DNA of 64,000 nucleotides from contig CP047423.1 in the NCBI GenBank assembly GCA_014058405.1, positions 2,960,501 through 3,024,500 of the forward strand, written 5' to 3'. Source of the stretch: Candidatus Nitrospira kreftii (GTDB lineage: Bacteria; Nitrospirota; Nitrospiria; Nitrospirales; Nitrospiraceae). The notes under the pieces were generated by a model. That model saw nothing but the letters and a program-made list of their open reading frames with translations. It had not been told where the DNA came from and ran no database searches. A program made the position numbers and the translations under genes. Positions 12,111 to 19,846 of the stretch are shown here, piece by piece (the first letter of the stretch is position 1; every line of letters starts with the position of its first letter).

Positions 12111-12464
12111 TCAAGGCCCCACACCCTGTCGCATCATCGCCCGGTGTTTGCTGGCCAGTTGCTGGTTCCTCTCCGCAGTCTTCCGAAAATCTTCGGCAGC
12201 CTCGCGTAACGACGCGATATGCTCCGACACCTTCATCTTGCCTGTGTACGTGTCTGGAAACTTTTCAAAGTAATCAGCCGCAAACTCCCAATCCAGTGCT
12301 TTGCTTTTGTTCTTCTGAGCCTCTTCTTCATAGTACATCGCGAGATCGTGATGATCGCTTGTGCCTTTATCCCCTATCGTGGGATGACCACCCGCATAAC
12401 TCTGCGTGGCCAGTACCATACCGATGAACAGCACCGTTCCCAACCATGTGGTGAACATTCGCAT
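12111..12464 (-). CDS. Small secreted protein of unknown function
   Basis: A 117-residue protein with a clear signal peptide (MFTTWLGTVLFIGMVLATQSYA) and a mature part of charged helices, including DLAMYYEEEAQKNKSKALDW and REAAEDFRKTAERNQQLASKH. The mature chain probably forms an antiparallel helical hairpin. The start ATG at 12464 follows AAGGAGG by seven bases. No family was recognised. A near-consensus copy of the ACTAGG-N6-CCTAGT palindrome lies about 200 bases upstream. Confidence 0.8.
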   Translation of the reverse strand: MRMFTTWLGTVLFIGMVLATQSYAGGHPTIGDKGTSDHHDLAMYYEEEAQKNKSKALDWEFAADYFEKFPDTYTGKMKVSEHIASLREAAEDFRKTAERNQQLASKHRAMMRQGVGP

Positions 12465-13069
12465 GAGATGCCTCCTTCTTTGTTTTCTTCTTTGCTCATC
12501 GATCTCCGAGCGTGGCATCATTCAGGACACGTTGATCGGCTGCGAAATCGTGATAGCTTGGTCCAAACCTCAACCTCCCTTCGCGTGAGGCCTCAGAACT
12601 TCACAACCATCACATCCACCTCTCACATCTACGATTCCAGTTTCACATTCGCTACGCTACTAGGTGATGGACTAGAAGCGAACGGCATATTTACCAGTAG
12701 CAATGCCGCAACGTGCGCGCGTCCGCTCTAGAAAGCTGCGGAAGAGCAGCGGGCTTAAATTGCGTGGGTCAACTCGCCGCCAAACAGGCGAACAACGCTC
12801 GCGTGAAGAATTTCTATAAACAATTGGTTACAGGTCGGTGAACTTCCAACTAGGGGAGCTGGCTATCTCGAGAGGCGTTCAACTGCCTTTTGCAAGAGGA
12901 CCACGAGCATAAGCACTTACAGAAAGACCTCTCTCAACTTTCTGGTCATGCGTTCAATCGCACACAGAGGCGTCGGAAATTTACTGGGACTTTCAACCCT
13001 CTGTCGTGGTCATGTCCCGTCGTCTTGGTGCAGGACTCCCGACAAGAAGCGACACGCACACAACAACTC
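12465..13069. other. Intergenic region with a palindromic site
   Basis: About 600 bases without a convincing gene. Long open frames on the plus strand have Arg/Ser/His-rich compositions typical of shadows. The one distinct signal is CTAGGTGATGGACTAG at 12660-12675, which matches the palindrome family of this locus at nine of ten arm positions. It lies upstream of the secreted-protein gene on the minus strand. Confidence 0.5.
12660..12675. promoter_or_regulatory. Palindrome site 1 (CTAGG-N6-ACTAG)
   Basis: CTAGGTGATGGACTAG is preceded by A, as in the other members. One arm position differs from the consensus CTAGG-N6-CCTAG. It lies upstream of the small secreted protein gene at 12111-12464 and is probably an operator of the local regulon. 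Confidence 0.5.
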
Positions 13070-13267
13070 TCACTTCGTGCCCTGTGTGCCCTGATAGGGA
13101 TCGTCAATGATAGCTTGGCACTCCAGACAGCGGACCTTCCCGGTCCGTTTTCCCCCTCTCGTCCGCACCTCGTCAATCATGCGGCCATGAGCGCACCTTC
13201 CTTCCAAAACAGGTTTGCGAATCGGCGGTATGGCTGGAATTTCTCTCAGTCTCACCATAGGCTCCAT
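13070..13267 (-). CDS. Small Cys/His motif protein
   Basis: 65 residues, starting at the ATG at 13267 behind GGAGAGG. It contains CAHG and, about 22 residues later, CLEC, a possible four-ligand metal knuckle, within a basic stretch (RTRGGKRTGKVR). The protein is cytosolic and very small; the function is unknown. A close copy of the locus palindrome lies about 145 bases upstream. Similar tiny Cys-rich proteins are encoded at 17200 and 19583, suggesting a set. Confidence 0.6.
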   Translation of the reverse strand: MEPMVRLREIPAIPPIRKPVLEGRCAHGRMIDEVRTRGGKRTGKVRCLECQAIIDDPYQGTQGTK

Positions 13268-13411
13268 GGCTCTCCTCTCCTGAATGATAAGGTGCATCGC
13301 TCTCCAGCTCCGCTCCAACCGGCATCATCGGCTCACGGATTCGAGGCGACAGTGCGAAGCGCTGAAGGAATCAGCAGAGACGAGGATACCAGCAATTATG
13401 CAACGTCACCA

Positions 13412-13427
13412 CTGGGTGATCACCTGG
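13412..13427. promoter_or_regulatory. Palindrome site 2 (CTGGGTGATCACCTGG)
   Basis: This copy is preceded by A, carries the core GGTGATCACC seen at 17004 and 18718, and has one change in each arm relative to CTAGG-N6-CCTAG. It lies between the regulator gene (13536-14219) and the start of the small Cys/His protein at 13267, upstream of the latter. Confidence 0.55.
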
Positions 13428-13535
13428 AGAGAAGAAGAAATGCTGCGAGTGTTCATTCGGAACGTGCGTGTCACAATCCGTTCGTTCAATGCCCGTCGAA
13501 GGACTCCGCACGAACGGATGTTGTGGACAGGATGC

Positions 13536-14219
13536 TCAGGAAAGGCCGGTGTCGGCGCTGACCAGCCCTTCGGCGATGGCGTACTTAGCCAGCGCGAGCG
13601 TGGAATGCAGATCGAGTTGCTCCATCAGCCGGGTTTTGTGGAACTCAACCGTCTTGAGCGACACATTTAAGAGTTGAGCGATGTCCTTTGGACTCTTACC
13701 TTCCGCGAGGAGCTGCAGCACTTCCCGTTGCCGAGGCGTCAACTGTGTTAACGATTTCCTCAGCTGCATCGGCGTTGACTTGTGCTTTACGATTGAGTCA
13801 AGGACCGGCCTGGTGATCGCCGGAGTGAGATACACTTGCCCATTGAGCACGGTTTCGATCGCTTGTGGCAGTTCAGAGGCAGCTGACTGCTTGAGCAGGT
13901 AGCCGCTGGCCCCGGCCTGAAGCGCTTCGGTAGCAAAAACCGGAGAGGCATGCATCGTCAGGAAGATCAGTTTCACGTCCGGCACCGACTTCTTGATCTG
14001 TCGCGCGGCGTCCATCCCGTTCAATAGAGGCATAGAAATGTCGACCAGAATAAGATCCGGTCGCAACTGTTCAGCGGCCTCGACTAGGGCGCGGCCATCT
14101 TCGACCGCCCCGATGACCTCGCACGTACCTTCGACTAATTTTCGTAGACCGGCCAGCATGATCGAATGATCATCGGCCATGAGTAGACGGGGCTTCTTTA
14201 TCGCCATCGCCTCGTGCAT
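13536..14219 (-). CDS. NarL/FixJ-type response regulator
   Basis: 227 residues with a receiver and a LuxR-type DNA-binding domain. The receiver has the ADDH acidic pair, the phospho-acceptor Asp in LILVDISMP and the Lys in YLLKQS. The C-terminal helix-turn-helix is LTPRQREVLQLLAEGKSPKD followed by VSLKTVEFHKTRLMEQL. The gene begins ten bases after the stop of the histidine kinase at 14230, so the two form a two-component system. Regulators of this class bind as dimers to short palindromes, which makes this protein the best candidate to bind the palindromes spread through 12.6-19.5 kb, including two in front of its own operon. Confidence 0.95.
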   Translation of the reverse strand: MHEAMAIKKPRLLMADDHSIMLAGLRKLVEGTCEVIGAVEDGRALVEAAEQLRPDLILVDISMPLLNGMDAARQIKKSVPDVKLIFLTMHASPVFATEALQAGASGYLLKQSAASELPQAIETVLNGQVYLTPAITRPVLDSIVKHKSTPMQLRKSLTQLTPRQREVLQLLAEGKSPKDIAQLLNVSLKTVEFHKTRLMEQLDLHSTLALAKYAIAEGLVSADTGLS

Positions 14220-14229
14220 AAGATCTACT

Positions 14230-16908
14230 CTATGCCTCAGGGTCCGTAGGATGCAAGCCGCTTCTCTGCCGACTGTCGTCGTTTACCAGACGCACGCTTC
14301 GCGTTTCACACTTCACGTCTTCCAACGGCACCCAGGCATGGAGTTCCGTCCCGTCACCGGATTTCGTTTTGACGCGAAACGTGCCTCTCAGCATCCCGAC
14401 CCGCTCCGCCATACTGGTCAAGCCCAGCCCCTTCCGCCGAGCCGCCCCATCGATCTCTTCAAAACCATGTCCATCGTCATGGATACACAATCCTAGACCT
14501 CGACCTGTCCCCAGCAGCCGCACCAAGACAGTGTTCGCATCAGCGTGCCTCTGCACATTCTGCAGCCCCTCCTGCATCACACGGTACAGACAGGTGGCGT
14601 GCTCCAGCGGAAGACCTTTGGGCACGTCCCGAGCCACGAATTCCACCGTGACACCGGTTCGCGCAGCAAACTCGTTGACGTGTTCGCGCACAGCCGCCTC
14701 CAGCCCTCCATATTCCAGGACCGCGGGGTGGAGCTGATGGGCCAGTCGTTGCAAGTCCGTCGTCAGTTGCTCTGCCGACGCCCCGCAGGCTTTGAGCTGC
14801 GCGAGCAGTTCCCCGTCGGACGAGGACGTAGAGGAACCTAGGCCGTACAGGTCCAACGTCAGAGCCCCCATCCTCTGCATCACATCATCATGCAGATCCC
14901 GAGAGATCCGTCTCCGTTCCTCTTCTTGAGCCCTCAACAGCCGAGCGCTGAGCTCGCGAAGTTGTGCTTCTCGCTCACGCAACAACATCTCGGCCTCCTT
15001 ACGCCAGGTGATATCCGTCTCTGCCCCGATCATACGGATGGCACGGCCCTCGCCGTTGCAGACAGCGATGCCCCGGTCGAGCACCCATACATAGATCCCG
15101 CCTTTCTTCTGGACGCGATACTCCTCATGAAACTGAGATCCCTTGCCTGCGTGGCATCGTTCGAGTGCTTCGAGCACTCGAGGTCGATCCTCTCGATGGA
15201 TTCTTGCCAACCATTCCTTCGTCGATTCCGTTCGATCGCTGTCTTGAAACCCGTGCATCTCTTTCCATCGAGGAGAAAAATAGGCTGTATCATGAACCAA
15301 ATCCCAATCCCAGACTCCGTCATTGGTCGCGCGAACCACCCAATCCCAGCGCTCGTTGGCCTCGGCCAAGGCAGCCGTCCGTTCGCGCACACGTGCCTCC
15401 AACGATTCGTTTAGAAGACACAGCCGCTCTTCGGACTCCTTTCGCTCGGTGATATCTTCTGTGAACATGACGATCCCGCCGACCTGGCCGTCGCTCAGTC
15501 GCCATGGGCGCACTTCCCACCGAAGCCATTGCACGGACCCATCGGCTCGTTCGAAGCGGTCTTCTGCTTCCCGCACAACCTCTCCCGCTAGTCCTCTTTG
15601 ATGAACATCTTTCCAACGGTCCGGGATTTCCGGGAAGACGTCATAATGCGACTGGCCGATGACGGTGATGGGACTTCCCCTTAAGCCATAATCTTCCATC
15701 CAGCGGTGGCTGACGAGCAGATAGCGCATATTTCGGTCGCACATCGCAAGGGCGGACGGCGCGTGTTCGACGAACAGCTGCAGCCGTTCTTCGCTCTCGC
15801 ACAAGGCCTCCTGCGCGCGCACGATGTCATCCACATTCGTGACCGAGCCGACCCAGCAAGTCACCTTCCCATGGCTGTCGCGCACCGGCAAGGCTCGCGC
15901 CATGACCCAGACATACACTCCATCGCTCCGCCGTAACCGTTGCTGCGATTCGAATGGCACACCATCCTGTATGCATTGCATCCAGCGATCGATGTTCCCC
16001 GCTCGGTCATCGGGATGGAGTGCATTGGCCCAGCCATGCCCGGCCACATCCTCCGGTGCTTGCCCGGTGAACCGGCACCAGCCTTCGCTGGTCCAGATAT
16101 TCCAGCCCATCGCATCAGTTTCAAACAAGAAACTCGGCACGGCTTCGGCCATAGTACGGAAGCGAGCTTCGCTTTCCTGCAACGCCTGTTCCGCCTGTTT
16201 GCGCTCAGTGATGTCTGTTTCGGAACCCGCCATGCGGACCACATTTCCCGCGCTGTCGCGCTTGGCGATGCCATGGTCCAGAATCCAAATCCAGCAACCG
16301 TTTTTGTGGCGGACTCTGTACTCTTCGGAAAACACCGCGGTCCGCCCCGCAAAATGATCGCGAACCGCCGCCATAACTCGTTCTTTATCATCAGAATGGA
16401 TTCGGCTGCTCCATTCCGTCTCATGATCGCTCACTTCGTCGTCGTCGAGTCCGCGCAATGCCTTCCAACGATGTGAAAACAACATGCGCTTCTCAAGCAC
16501 GTTCCAATCCCAAATCGCGCCTCCTGCGCCTGCCACCACCAATGCATAGCGTTCCTCGCTCTCACGCAAGTCGACTTGATCCTTGATACGTTGCTGAGCC
16601 AGGTGCTTTTCCTTGAGCAAGAGTCCCCCAACGGCGAATAACAGGACCGAGATCATGGCCCGGTTGCCAACCACCACAAGCCCAACCTCTTCAAGATACG
16701 GCATTATCCCCAACCAGCTGAGGAGGACAACTCCCCCGGTCAGGAGGGCCGTACTCCACCAACCAGGAATGTACCTTGTGAACAAGATCGGCAACACATA
16801 GAGCATCGGCACAGCGAAGGCACGTGGAGTGACAAGGTCGAGAATGAATATTGCTGCTGCCGCAATGATCCAGCCCATCGGCTTTGTCTGAGTCTGCCCA
16901 GGGGTCAT
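14230..16908 (-). CDS. Membrane PAS-repeat sensor histidine kinase (NarX/HisKA_3 type)
   Basis: 892 residues from the ATG at 16908, which follows GGAG; an in-frame GTG eight codons upstream lacks a clear site. The N-terminus has about four membrane helices (IIAAAAIFILDLVTPRAFAV to MISVLLFAVGGLLL). Four PAS/PAC units follow, each ending in a DITERK-like linker (SETDITERK, SVTNVDD, FTEDITERK, AETDITWRK). The HisKA_3 helix EEERRRISRDLHDDVMQRMG holds the phospho-His, and the ATPase domain shows NVQRHADA and DDGHGFE then GLGLTSMAER. Several PAS domains have the W-rich PAC strand typical of small-ligand sensors. It pairs with the downstream NarL-type regulator. Confidence 0.93.
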   Translation of the reverse strand: MTPGQTQTKPMGWIIAAAAIFILDLVTPRAFAVPMLYVLPILFTRYIPGWWSTALLTGGVVLLSWLGIMPYLEEVGLVVVGNRAMISVLLFAVGGLLLKEKHLAQQRIKDQVDLRESEERYALVVAGAGGAIWDWNVLEKRMLFSHRWKALRGLDDDEVSDHETEWSSRIHSDDKERVMAAVRDHFAGRTAVFSEEYRVRHKNGCWIWILDHGIAKRDSAGNVVRMAGSETDITERKQAEQALQESEARFRTMAEAVPSFLFETDAMGWNIWTSEGWCRFTGQAPEDVAGHGWANALHPDDRAGNIDRWMQCIQDGVPFESQQRLRRSDGVYVWVMARALPVRDSHGKVTCWVGSVTNVDDIVRAQEALCESEERLQLFVEHAPSALAMCDRNMRYLLVSHRWMEDYGLRGSPITVIGQSHYDVFPEIPDRWKDVHQRGLAGEVVREAEDRFERADGSVQWLRWEVRPWRLSDGQVGGIVMFTEDITERKESEERLCLLNESLEARVRERTAALAEANERWDWVVRATNDGVWDWDLVHDTAYFSPRWKEMHGFQDSDRTESTKEWLARIHREDRPRVLEALERCHAGKGSQFHEEYRVQKKGGIYVWVLDRGIAVCNGEGRAIRMIGAETDITWRKEAEMLLREREAQLRELSARLLRAQEEERRRISRDLHDDVMQRMGALTLDLYGLGSSTSSSDGELLAQLKACGASAEQLTTDLQRLAHQLHPAVLEYGGLEAAVREHVNEFAARTGVTVEFVARDVPKGLPLEHATCLYRVMQEGLQNVQRHADANTVLVRLLGTGRGLGLCIHDDGHGFEEIDGAARRKGLGLTSMAERVGMLRGTFRVKTKSGDGTELHAWVPLEDVKCETRSVRLVNDDSRQRSGLHPTDPEA

Positions 16909-17003
16909 GTACCAGGCTCCATGCCGAAGCACCGCGATGTTACGAGGAGTTTGGACATTGCGTTTGAGGGAGACAGTTTATACTTAAAGCAAACCTCATC
17001 GCA

Positions 17004-17019
17004 CTAGGTGATCACCTAG
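17004..17019. promoter_or_regulatory. Palindrome site 3 (perfect, CTAGGTGATCACCTAG)
   Basis: A perfect 16-bp palindrome in the divergent space between the histidine kinase (start 16908) and the Cys-rich gene at 17200. It is the best copy of the locus motif and lies about 95 bases upstream of the kinase start, a position suited to autoregulation. Confidence 0.7.
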
Positions 17020-17087
17020 GGGAAGGACGGCATCATGCAAATCGGTAACCCATGGAGGGCAATCCTCCTGGTGAAATTTCGTGGTCA

Positions 17088-17107
17088 AACTAGGTCGCCA
17101 CCTAGTT
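17088..17107. promoter_or_regulatory. Palindrome site 4 (AACTAGG-N6-CCTAGTT)
   Basis: A perfect dyad: AACTAGGT and ACCTAGTT separated by CGCC. Its centre lies 86 bases from that of site 3, about eight helical turns, so the two could be bound cooperatively. It is about 95 bases upstream of the gene at 17200. Confidence 0.7.
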
Positions 17108-17199
17108 CCGCTATCGATCGATTCCAGGCACAGTTCCTTGAAATCGAAGTAGATCGGTTCGATCTTATTATCGATTTTGTCCGGACAGGAGGTGCCGTC

Positions 17200-17667
17200 A
17201 TGTCTACCGTCCAAACAGACATCCCAAGCGCTGTGATTGATATCCTGGCGCACATGGGTCCTTGCACGATGGATCAATTGGTAGAGTTACTTCCCGCACA
17301 TGGATGGAGTGAAGTCTTCTCCGCTGTCGATGACATGTCGCGAGATGGTCGGCTGATGCTCCGGCGTTCTTCCAACTCGAGTTCTGAATACCAGGTATCT
17401 CTCTCCGATTCATGCCAAGCGGACAGACCTGATCGCACCAGGCCCGATCCGGTGCAGTTTTGCGTGGGATGCGGCTACCTCTGCGACAAAATTGATCCGG
17501 AAGTTGCTCAGGCGCCGTGGATTGAAGCACGTCGTTACTTGAAGAAGTATAGCCTGACCTGGATTGAGCTCGATCGAACTGACGACATGTGCCCAGCTTG
17601 CGCCCGTGTAGTGGCCTGCGGGAGGCGGCGAGTTCCATCACGCGCTCAGGCAACGGCGGCACGGTAA
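17200..17667 (+). CDS. Winged-helix-like protein with Cys-rich C-terminus
   Basis: 155 residues from the ATG at 17200, behind ACAGGAGG; the frame upstream has no ribosome site. Residues about 10-60 look like a small winged helix (AVIDILAHMGPCTMDQLVEL then VFSAVDDMSRDGRLMLRR), as in MarR- or ArsR-like folds. The second half carries CVGCGYLC and CPAC, a likely zinc site, followed by a basic tail. It may be a DNA-binding regulator, but no family was recognised. Two palindromes precede it. Confidence 0.7.
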   Translation: MSTVQTDIPSAVIDILAHMGPCTMDQLVELLPAHGWSEVFSAVDDMSRDGRLMLRRSSNSSSEYQVSLSDSCQADRPDRTRPDPVQFCVGCGYLCDKIDPEVAQAPWIEARRYLKKYSLTWIELDRTDDMCPACARVVACGRRRVPSRAQATAAR

Positions 17668-17701
17668 GACGCACCCCTAAAGACCGGACCACAAGCACAG
17701 G

Positions 17702-18139
17702 TCATGAGGACGGTTCCCCTGACGGTACGCCCAGGAAGTGGAGTGGTTTCTCCCGGGTGAGGTGCTGCGGCTGCACGATGTAATCACCGGTCATGGAAGG
17801 AATCCAGACGGATTTCCCCACCTCCATGCTTCCTCCCGTCATCGCCCACGCGAGACCGCCCACAATCGCACCGCCGATCGCATAGGCAGCCTTTGCGGCA
17901 CCGTATGGAAGGGTCAGAACCCAACTGGCGGCTTGGAGTCCGGCTTCTTTAGACTTCGATGGCCTCGCTGTGTGTATTCCTTCGTGATGTATTTCTTCTG
18001 GCTGCGATGGGGCCGCTTCAGGTATTCCTTCAACGTGAGCGAGCACAGGCCCTCCCATCACGACGAGCAAGACGCAGAGGGCTGCCCCAACCATACGCGC
18101 CCCTCTCGGATGTACCCAACGAAGACCCCTCACACTCAT
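17702..18139 (-). CDS. Exported glycine-zipper-like protein
   Basis: 145 residues with a signal peptide (MVGAALCVLLVVMGGPVLAH) and a central small-residue helix (YGAAKAAYAIGGAIVGGLAW), typical of envelope proteins that insert or pack in a membrane. The start at 18139 has GGGAG nine bases upstream. A single CCTAGT half-site lies about 25 bases before the start. It ends convergently with the gene at 17200. No family function is known to me. Confidence 0.7.
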   Translation of the reverse strand: MSVRGLRWVHPRGARMVGAALCVLLVVMGGPVLAHVEGIPEAAPSQPEEIHHEGIHTARPSKSKEAGLQAASWVLTLPYGAAKAAYAIGGAIVGGLAWAMTGGSMEVGKSVWIPSMTGDYIVQPQHLTREKPLHFLGVPSGEPSS

Positions 18140-18211
18140 GTATTTTCACTCCCTAATGCATGCCTAGTACCATAAACAAGACCCCGCGCACAACACACCA
18201 GGCTTTCTCGC

Positions 18212-18685
18212 TTACGTGCTCATGTGTTTCTTCAGGACGGGAGACTCCGTGATCATGGAGTTATCCGGAGCAAGCTCGACCGCCTTCTCAAAAGCAGCCT
18301 TGGCCTCGTCATGCCTGTCTAGCTTGTCCAACGCCAAGCCTAAGTTGAAATGCGCTTCCGCGAGTTTCGGATCAGCTTCCAGAGCCTTGCGGAAGTGACC
18401 CTCCGCGACGTCCCAATGGCCTTGCTGGGCGTGGCTGAAACCTTCCTTATTCGCAGCTCGGCCGGCCGAGCCCTCAGGCGCCGTCAAGGGAGCGACGGTT
18501 TCCGTCGCAGGCATCTCCATTTTGGCCTCCCCGGTCGGCGTGGCCTCCATCTTAGGAGCAGGCGCCTCCTGCTTTGACTCCATCGGAGGCTGCCGTTGCT
18601 CACAACCGACCAGCCCCATTATCGCGACGAAGCCTACACAGACGACCCCACTGGTTGATACTCCTCTACAATCCTTGTCGCTCAT
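18212..18685 (-). CDS. TPR lipoprotein
   Basis: 157 residues. The signal sequence ends in a lipobox (IMGLVGC), then comes a Pro/Glu/Ala-rich linker and two to three TPR units (GHWDVAEGHFRKALEADPKL, AEAHFNLGLALDKLDRHDEA). Probably anchored to the outer or inner membrane as a docking protein. The ATG at 18685 (or 18688) follows AAGGAGG. The palindrome core GGTGATCACC lies about 30 bases upstream, over the expected promoter. Confidence 0.85.
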   Translation of the reverse strand: MSDKDCRGVSTSGVVCVGFVAIMGLVGCEQRQPPMESKQEAPAPKMEATPTGEAKMEMPATETVAPLTAPEGSAGRAANKEGFSHAQQGHWDVAEGHFRKALEADPKLAEAHFNLGLALDKLDRHDEAKAAFEKAVELAPDNSMITESPVLKKHMST

Positions 18686-18714
18686 CATTCTCCTCCTTAT
18701 GCGTCCTGAAAAAA

Positions 18715-18730
18715 TCGGGTGATCACCACT
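18715..18730. promoter_or_regulatory. Palindrome site 5 (core GGTGATCACC)
   Basis: The 10-bp core at 18718-18727 is perfect and identical to the centres of sites 2 and 3, but the outer CTA/TAG bases are not kept. It lies directly upstream of the TPR lipoprotein gene (minus strand), within the likely promoter. Confidence 0.45.
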
Positions 18731-18764
18731 GCGGTCGATATTCGAATACCTGCCGACCACGTAG

Positions 18765-19142
18765 TTACTTTTGTTCTGAAGTCACTTTCGACCCCTCCTG
18801 CACCGGAGGCTCGATCTTGATGACCGGACCTTCGACCCTGGGTAACAGGCCCGCGCCTGGCTTCTCTAAGATGCGCTCGTCCTGTCGATTGCTGGACAGA
18901 CTTTGTATGACGTGATCAACGTCCGTGACTGCTGCCTCTTGTAAGGCCTGGTCCCCGACGGCGTTCTTCTCTCCGGGATCATTCGCGAGCGATTGGCCGC
19001 CTACAGGGTCAATGGCCTTTCCCATCGGATAGCCTGGATGGTTCGGCAGCATCGATGGATTGGCCAGGGCGAAGGAGACCCCAAACAGAACGGCACCAAC
19101 AACCAAACAGGTACGCAAGAAGTTGTTCATTGTGTTGATCAT
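18765..19142 (-). CDS. Small exported protein of unknown function
   Basis: 125 residues with a signal peptide (FLRTCLVVGAVLFGVSFALA) and a Pro/Gly-rich mature part without clear domains. The start at 19142 has GAGAGG six to seven bases upstream. A second ATG four codons later is possible. The gene is followed by the TPR lipoprotein on the same strand and may share a transcript or have its own promoter in the 440-base space upstream. Confidence 0.7.
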   Translation of the reverse strand: MINTMNNFLRTCLVVGAVLFGVSFALANPSMLPNHPGYPMGKAIDPVGGQSLANDPGEKNAVGDQALQEAAVTDVDHVIQSLSSNRQDERILEKPGAGLLPRVEGPVIKIEPPVQEGSKVTSEQK

Positions 19143-19283
19143 GACGGTACCTCTCGTGTGATGAGGTGAGAGACATCTTTTGTTTTACGCGCAGCGCAGC
19201 ACATTACACCCAACTCCTCAGACCCCCTCGAGATTGAGATAGTCATCTCATAAAACACCCTACATTGTGTTGGATGCCTAACG

Positions 19284-19303
19284 AACTAGGAAAGAGCCTA
19301 GTT
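19284..19303. promoter_or_regulatory. Palindrome site 6 (AACTAGG-N6-CCTAGTT)
   Basis: The arms are identical to those of site 4 (AACTAGG and CCTAGTT) with the same six-base spacing but an unrelated centre (AAAGAG). This shows that the outer arms, not the centre, are conserved. It lies about 140 bases upstream of the exported-protein gene at 18765-19142. Confidence 0.68.
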
Positions 19304-19472
19304 ATGTCGTCCATCGATACCAGAGGCCGCTCATTGCCGGATTGCCGTGCCGTGAGTCTCTAGGCATGTATTCAGGGCTGCCTCTTTCTCACGTAGCCGC
19401 TGCCGCACAATCCTCCCTCGCCCCTCGCCCCAAAGACATAGCCGTTCCTTCTGGGATATTTCGGTCGTCGTA

Positions 19473-19488
19473 CAAGGGTCTTTCCTAG
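19473..19488. promoter_or_regulatory. Palindrome site 7 (CAAGG-N6-CCTAG)
   Basis: One mismatch in the left arm relative to CTAGG-N6-CCTAG; the right arm is perfect and followed by T. It lies about 95 bases upstream of the plus-strand gene at 19583, the same distance as site 4 from the gene at 17200. Confidence 0.5.
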
Positions 19489-19582
19489 TAGCGCAGCGCC
19501 TCACCACATTTTATTGTGCACACCTAGCTAGACGGACACAGGGGGATAACTGTTTGCGATCGAGAAACGAGACGAGGCCATC

Positions 19583-19846
19583 ATGAAAAATCACAATGTT
19601 CTTGAGGAAACCAATGCGGTGCAGATGGATACCTGCGGACGTTGTCAGGGATTAATGGTTCCGTGCTACACGGATTCGTTGTTCTTGGAATTAACTGAGG
19701 CAGTGCGAACCCCATCTTGGCGCTGCGTAAATTGCGGCGAATGGATTGACACGACCATCGCGTCCAACCGCCAGCGGACGCGTCATGAGAGCGCTCCCTC
19801 CACAGAGCCTGCATCTGCGTCTCCGAACCGTCGTTGGAGCCGATAA
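19583..19846 (+). CDS. Small zinc-ribbon-like protein
   Basis: 87 residues with two CxxC knuckles, CGRC near residue 18 and CVNC near residue 48, and a basic, disordered tail. The pattern fits a small zinc ribbon. The start ATG follows a weak GAGG. It precedes the nucleotidyltransferase gene and is one of three small Cys-motif proteins in this locus. The function is unknown. Confidence 0.72.
   Translation: MKNHNVLEETNAVQMDTCGRCQGLMVPCYTDSLFLELTEAVRTPSWRCVNCGEWIDTTIASNRQRTRHESAPSTEPASASPNRRWSR

Follow-up and report, generated by a model that had tools for sequence, protein, structure and literature searches.

The operator of the BarA-UvrY (UvrY/GacA) system of gammaproteobacteria, TGTAAG-N6-CTTACA, is bound by a NarL/FixJ-family regulator and is an 18-bp inverted repeat in which a 6-base spacer separates two hexamers (PMC4682653). 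The same 6-N6-6 layout is found in the palindrome ACTAGG-N6-CCTAGT, considered here in a window of 64,000 nucleotides from the genome of Candidatus Nitrospira kreftii, but its arms do not match TGTAAG/CTTACA. The sites of UvrY/GacA lie far upstream, at about -180, and control regulatory RNAs, whereas the Nitrospira sites lie beside the -35 region, ahead of the regulator's own operon. In promoter position the palindrome resembles the operators of DevR/DosR of Mycobacterium tuberculosis, a NarL-family regulator that activates transcription from a promoter-proximal site overlapping the -35 region and is autoregulated (PMC3029386). The DevR/DosR sites are actinobacterial, multiple and clustered, and their arms are of the GGGACT/AGTCCC type, not ACTAGG/CCTAGT. 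The DevR/DosR operator sequence is GGGACTTNNGNCCCT, and the sensors of this system are haem GAF kinases, not multi-PAS kinases.

The best PDB sequence matches of the regulator encoded in the window at 13536-14219 were VraR and NarL (5hev, 1a04). These proteins have the same receiver plus GerE architecture and are its nearest solved full-length relatives, but their operators and physiology differ from those of the Nitrospira regulator. Regulators of the CRP/FNR family usually recognize TTGAT-N4-ATCAA, which is unlike the Nitrospira palindrome. A CRP/FNR meta-regulon was predicted for a nitritation-anammox microbiome in a paper that mentions Nitrospira and deals with a regulator family other than the NarL type found here (PMC8510549). 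No described two-component regulon for Nitrospira was found in the open literature, and a query of this literature with the motif gave no match. Representatives of Nitrospira perform nitrite oxidation and complete nitrification worldwide. The result reported here comprises a concrete operator, a promoter layout, a regulator clade and a target list, and lends itself to testing with a single purified protein and the transcriptomes already available.

The locus contains genes of a multi-PAS histidine kinase (14230-16908, minus strand), with the domains HisKA_3 (4.4e-11) and HATPase_c, and of a NarL/FixJ-type response regulator (13536-14219, minus strand), with a receiver (PF00072, 6.4e-26) and a LuxR-type HTH domain GerE (PF00196, 1.6e-17). 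The kinase gene is the first gene of the kinase-regulator operon and is separated from the regulator gene by a 10-bp gap. The recognition helix of the regulator, the proposed binder, is TVEFHKTRL. These two genes, three genes of small Cys-motif proteins and a TPR lipoprotein gene are all present, as described in the first-pass annotation. We consider, with a probability of about 80%, that ACTAGG-N6-CCTAGT is a class II activating operator of a clade of NarL/FixJ-type regulators of Nitrospiraceae that includes the protein 13536-14219. This reading is drawn from the motif, its spacing and conservation, its phasing with the promoter and its association with the regulator clade, all of them read from the sequence.

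Sites of the window were scored against the arms CTAGG/CCTAG with a 6-base spacer, and the hexamer at +23 was taken on the gene-facing side. Three candidate operators have exact arms. The site CTAGGTGATCACCTAG (17004-17019, minus strand), with the -10-like hexamer TAAACT at 16975-16980, is predicted to drive the kinase-regulator operon from a start near 16968. The site AACTAGGTCGCCACCTAGTT (17090-17105, plus strand), lying inside a 20-bp palindrome (17088-17107), is oriented to the gene of a small winged-helix protein (17200-17667, plus strand); the hexamer at +23, CACAGT (17129-17134), is not a full TAnnnT, and the same CACAGT is found at +23 in the orthologous locus L185. The site CTAGGAAAGAGCCTAG (19286-19301, minus strand) precedes its predicted target, the gene of a small exported protein (18765-19142, minus strand), with TAGGGT at 19257-19262, and has a one-mismatch ortholog in L160 at 14916.

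Three further candidates are degenerate. The site CAAGGGTCTTTCCTAG (19473-19488, plus strand; one mismatch) precedes its predicted target, the gene of a small two-CxxC, zinc-ribbon-like protein (19583-19846, plus strand), with TATTGT at 19512-19517. The site CTGGGTGATCACCTGG (13412-13427, minus strand; two mismatches) precedes the gene of a small Cys-motif protein (13070-13267, minus strand), with TATCCT at 13383-13388; in orthologous loci, sites with at most one mismatch occupy the corresponding place past the regulator stop codon. The site CTAGGTGATGGACTAG (12660-12675, minus strand; one mismatch) lies 196 bp ahead of the gene 12111-12464 and has no TAnnnT at +23, where the hexamer is AATCGT, while in L163 (G076) an exact site is located 192 bp ahead of the orthologous gene. 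Thus TAnnnT begins exactly 23 bases past the site in four cases (13412, 17004, 19286 and 19473), which gives independent support to the two degenerate sites 13412 and 19473. A seventh site proposed earlier, at 18718-18727, consists of GGTGATCACC only, with six mismatches to the arms; it was rejected, having neither arms nor TAnnnT at +23 and lying about 30 bp from the lipoprotein start codon. Accordingly, of seven sites said to share inverted arms, three exact and three degenerate ones were retained. The TPR lipoprotein gene (18212-18688, minus strand) is a conserved neighbour for which control by 18718 lacks support, although read-through from 19286 is possible.

The sites of the window are intergenic, and a search of the whole window for exact pairs gave no further copy, both in agreement with the first-pass annotation. 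A stretch of 2.8 kb holds all three exact copies, a density well in excess of that in the genome (Poisson 9e-8). With up to three mismatches allowed, 12 matches were found in the window against a mean of 10.6 in shuffles, so a loosely defined family is not significant by itself; the palindrome family stands out only by its exact and near-exact sites and by conservation.

In the whole genome (G000, one contig of 4.13 Mb), pattern searches revealed 28 CTAGG-Nx-CCTAG pairs over x from 0 to 24, of which 12 have x = 6 (binomial 3e-10). Identical long perfect hairpins containing CTAGG-N6-CCTAG are located at 1597787 and 3111250 (L003:1488-1529 and L012:1488-1529), one of them near a transposase-like ORF, and resemble parts of insertion sequences, not operators. 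One more exact pair, at 1218668, lies inside a gene, which, after subtraction of the two hairpins, leaves about nine candidate operators in the genome. Matches to CTAGG-N7-CCTAG (343272, 343393 and 3606937), for example CTAGGTTCGATTCCTAG, resemble tRNA T-arms; by eye, this applies to three of the five spacer-7 pairs of the genome and accounts for the small bump at this spacer. The reversed pattern GATCC..GGATC could not serve as a control, its frequency being much higher than that of the CTAG pattern.

In the collected loci, 87 of 93 distinct exact sites are intergenic, compared with 361 of 570 lone CTAGG words, and the logo of these 93 sites is ACTAGG-RRWWYY-CCTAGT. The motif had been described as a local family, which proved too narrow: in a search of 296 genomes of the phylum, matches to CTAGG-N6-CCTAG-N23-TAnnnT occurred in 37, of which 36 belong to the family Nitrospiraceae. 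The number of sites per genome varies from 0 to 20 in 79 genomes of the same genus.

The sites are also conserved in place. Genes of all related loci were called with a home-made hexamer caller. In four loci of the same genus (L160, L161, L162 and L163), with regulators 85-89% identical, sites recur 93-97 bp ahead of the kinase gene, with a second one further upstream, one past the regulator stop codon and others ahead of some satellite genes. A sample free of selection by the motif comprised 80 named Nitrospira/Nitrospirae loci (858 kb) fetched by the regulator protein only. It contained 40 exact and 64 one-mismatch sites with spacer 6, compared with at most 4 exact and 13 one-mismatch sites for any other spacer from 0 to 14. 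These sites are located mostly upstream of the kinase gene and 20-540 bp past the regulator stop codon, in the latter case preceding a gene of a stand-alone receiver or of a winged-helix-like protein of 70-87 residues. Selection on the arms, suggested earlier from the window, is supported by the spacing and by the conserved placement across loci, and the expected position ahead of orthologues was found in L160-L163.

Promoter layout was analyzed in 71 non-redundant site-to-gene stretches. In 27 of them TAnnnT starts exactly 23 bases past CCTAG, compared with an average of about 1.5 per position; T, A and T occupy the respective -10 positions in 45, 51 and 44 stretches. In standard sigma-70 numbering the 16-bp core of the palindrome corresponds to about -51 to -36, and the six bases that directly follow CCTAG, at the place of the -35 element, are weakly conserved. 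The pattern CTAGG-N6-CCTAG-N23-TAnnnT gave 72 matches (entered as 73 in the statistics) in 31 of the 79 genomes of the genus, some of them overlapping the set from which the rule was learned, while the N20 control pattern gave 2 matches in 2 genomes. The fixed position of the operator beside the -35 region and the conserved -10, as judged from the sequence, correspond to the arrangement of class II activator-dependent sigma-70 promoters. The half-site was also considered as the -35 element of an alternative sigma factor; this was rejected, since a -35 hexamer would have to be closer to the -10 than the 23 bp that separate it from the end of the last half-site, and conservation extends over the entire dyad.

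Among 127 NarL-type regulators of the collected loci, a site with at most one mismatch was found within 700 bp of 65 of the 109 with the recognition helix TVxFH(K/R) and of none of the 18 with other recognition helices. The sixth base of the half-site is mostly T around regulators of the window type (CTAGGT; 19 of 30 half-sites) and mostly G around a convergent pair of regulators (CTAGGG; 39 of 60); this change with regulator subfamily suggests that the regulators themselves are the binders. The arms, said earlier to stay the same, thus vary slightly between these subfamilies. In the 79 genomes, the mean number of sites is 5.4 to 9.9 where a window-type (E below 1e-95) or convergent-pair regulator is present and 1.2 in the 47 genomes with neither, a co-occurrence that is supporting, not decisive, because cut-offs were picked from gaps in score lists and the genomes are related. 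Some genomes retain a 65% identical regulator and have no exact site. The motif is common to both regulator types, and the window-type regulator as sole binder was rejected, since genome G040, with 20 sites, has no close copy of it but has the convergent pair. Conserved placement, helix association, co-occurrence and the fixed -10 spacing make the local NarL-type clade the most likely binder, consistent with the initial proposal.

The convergent NarL-type pair is encoded in the genome under study at 2.097 Mb (L144:6864-8284) and also in L045, L145 and L146; candidate operators of the CTAGGG type precede one or both of its genes. Its neighbours, assessed by eye, are of the stress type: CBS-domain proteins, phosphoketolase, acetate kinase, PepSY and small exported proteins.

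The same operator could serve a repressor or a dual switch, in which a dimer beside the -35 region blocks polymerase until phosphorylation or dephosphorylation relieves the block. The palindrome extends up to the -35 region, from which some NarL-family proteins repress, and whether control is positive or negative does not follow from position alone. Still, a weak -35 and a -10 at one fixed distance are expected of promoters that need an activator, and DevR sites overlapping the -35 region activate (PMC3029386), which makes repression unlikely. Less probable again is binding by another dimeric transcription factor, for which the kinase-regulator loci would be merely some of the targets. Such a factor would explain sites ahead of many genes far from any regulator and a motif shared by two regulator types, but not why sites are so dense in loci selected solely by the regulator, why a half-site base follows the regulator subfamily and why sites follow the type of recognition helix.

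Two other explanations have very little probability. An RNA hairpin, terminator or attenuator would suit the inverted repeats of the arms and the position of some sites directly past the regulator stop codon; however, repeats with compensated arm changes are not enriched at spacer 6 (11 versus 7-18 with other spacing), a T-run comes after only 3 of the 93 sites, and the -10 lies downstream, so that transcripts of this promoter would not include the site. A chance origin of the palindromes in AT-richer DNA between genes would agree with the shuffle-like number of three-mismatch matches in the window, but is refuted by the spacing specificity, conservation and -10 phasing controls.

The palindrome is very probably the landing site by which the regulator family switches on its own genes and many sensor genes. 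In the activating-operator reading, the PAS kinase would phosphorylate the regulator, and a phosphorylated dimer would bind the palindrome (about -51 to -36), immediately before the degenerate -35 and 23 bp ahead of the TAnnnT -10, recruiting polymerase and activating sigma-70-type transcription as a class II activator. In the window this would turn on the kinase-regulator operon itself, giving positive feedback, and also the small satellite genes that flank it on either side; paralogous regulators of related genomes would act through the same operator, with a half-site base specific to each subfamily, ahead of many PAS kinases and receivers. Binding, phosphorylation dependence, activation (not repression) and the signal are inferred, the first three from what is typical of the NarL/FixJ family.

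Target genes were defined as 82 genes starting at most 400 bp from an exact intergenic site and compared with 82 genes of the same regions. HATPase_c kinases were found among 18 targets versus 4 comparison genes, HisKA_3 kinases among 14 versus 2 and receivers among 21 versus 8; the p-value for kinases is about 0.002-0.003, with the numbers somewhat inflated by orthologous copies. Across genomes, the enrichment among genes beside the sites concerns PAS histidine kinases and receivers, not envelope functions; the envelope or redox stress role suggested initially received no support from this comparison. Other targets include CBS-domain proteins, stand-alone receivers and many small exported proteins without a family. 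A broader, tentative reading, possible rather than probable, is a family-wide 'regulon of sensors', in which several NarL-type paralogs, kept apart by a single base of the half-site, would control their own operons and a large set of PAS histidine kinases and receivers through one promoter class, CTAGG-N6-CCTAG-N23-TAnnnT, with an undescribed family of winged-helix satellites as co-regulator; the signalling network itself would then be a transcriptional target.

The product of 17200-17667, a small winged-helix protein with a Cys-rich C-terminal part, represents a satellite family recurrent at such loci, with 54 distinct sequences in the collected loci. A Pfam search found no family for it, while its AlphaFold model contains a confident winged helix, and Foldseek gave matches to MarR- and Fur-type DNA-binding domains; this satellite may be a co-regulator. 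A Pfam search likewise found no family for the small Cys-motif satellite 13070-13267, the orthologs of which come after the regulator in L161-L163. Winged-helix satellites (for example, L246:7125-7388 and L147:8128-8367) adjoin kinase-regulator loci, usually with a candidate operator ahead of them. In two species, orthologous CBS-domain genes (L055:6511-7570 and L052:6136-8084) both have an operator-like site no more than about 1.1 kb away.
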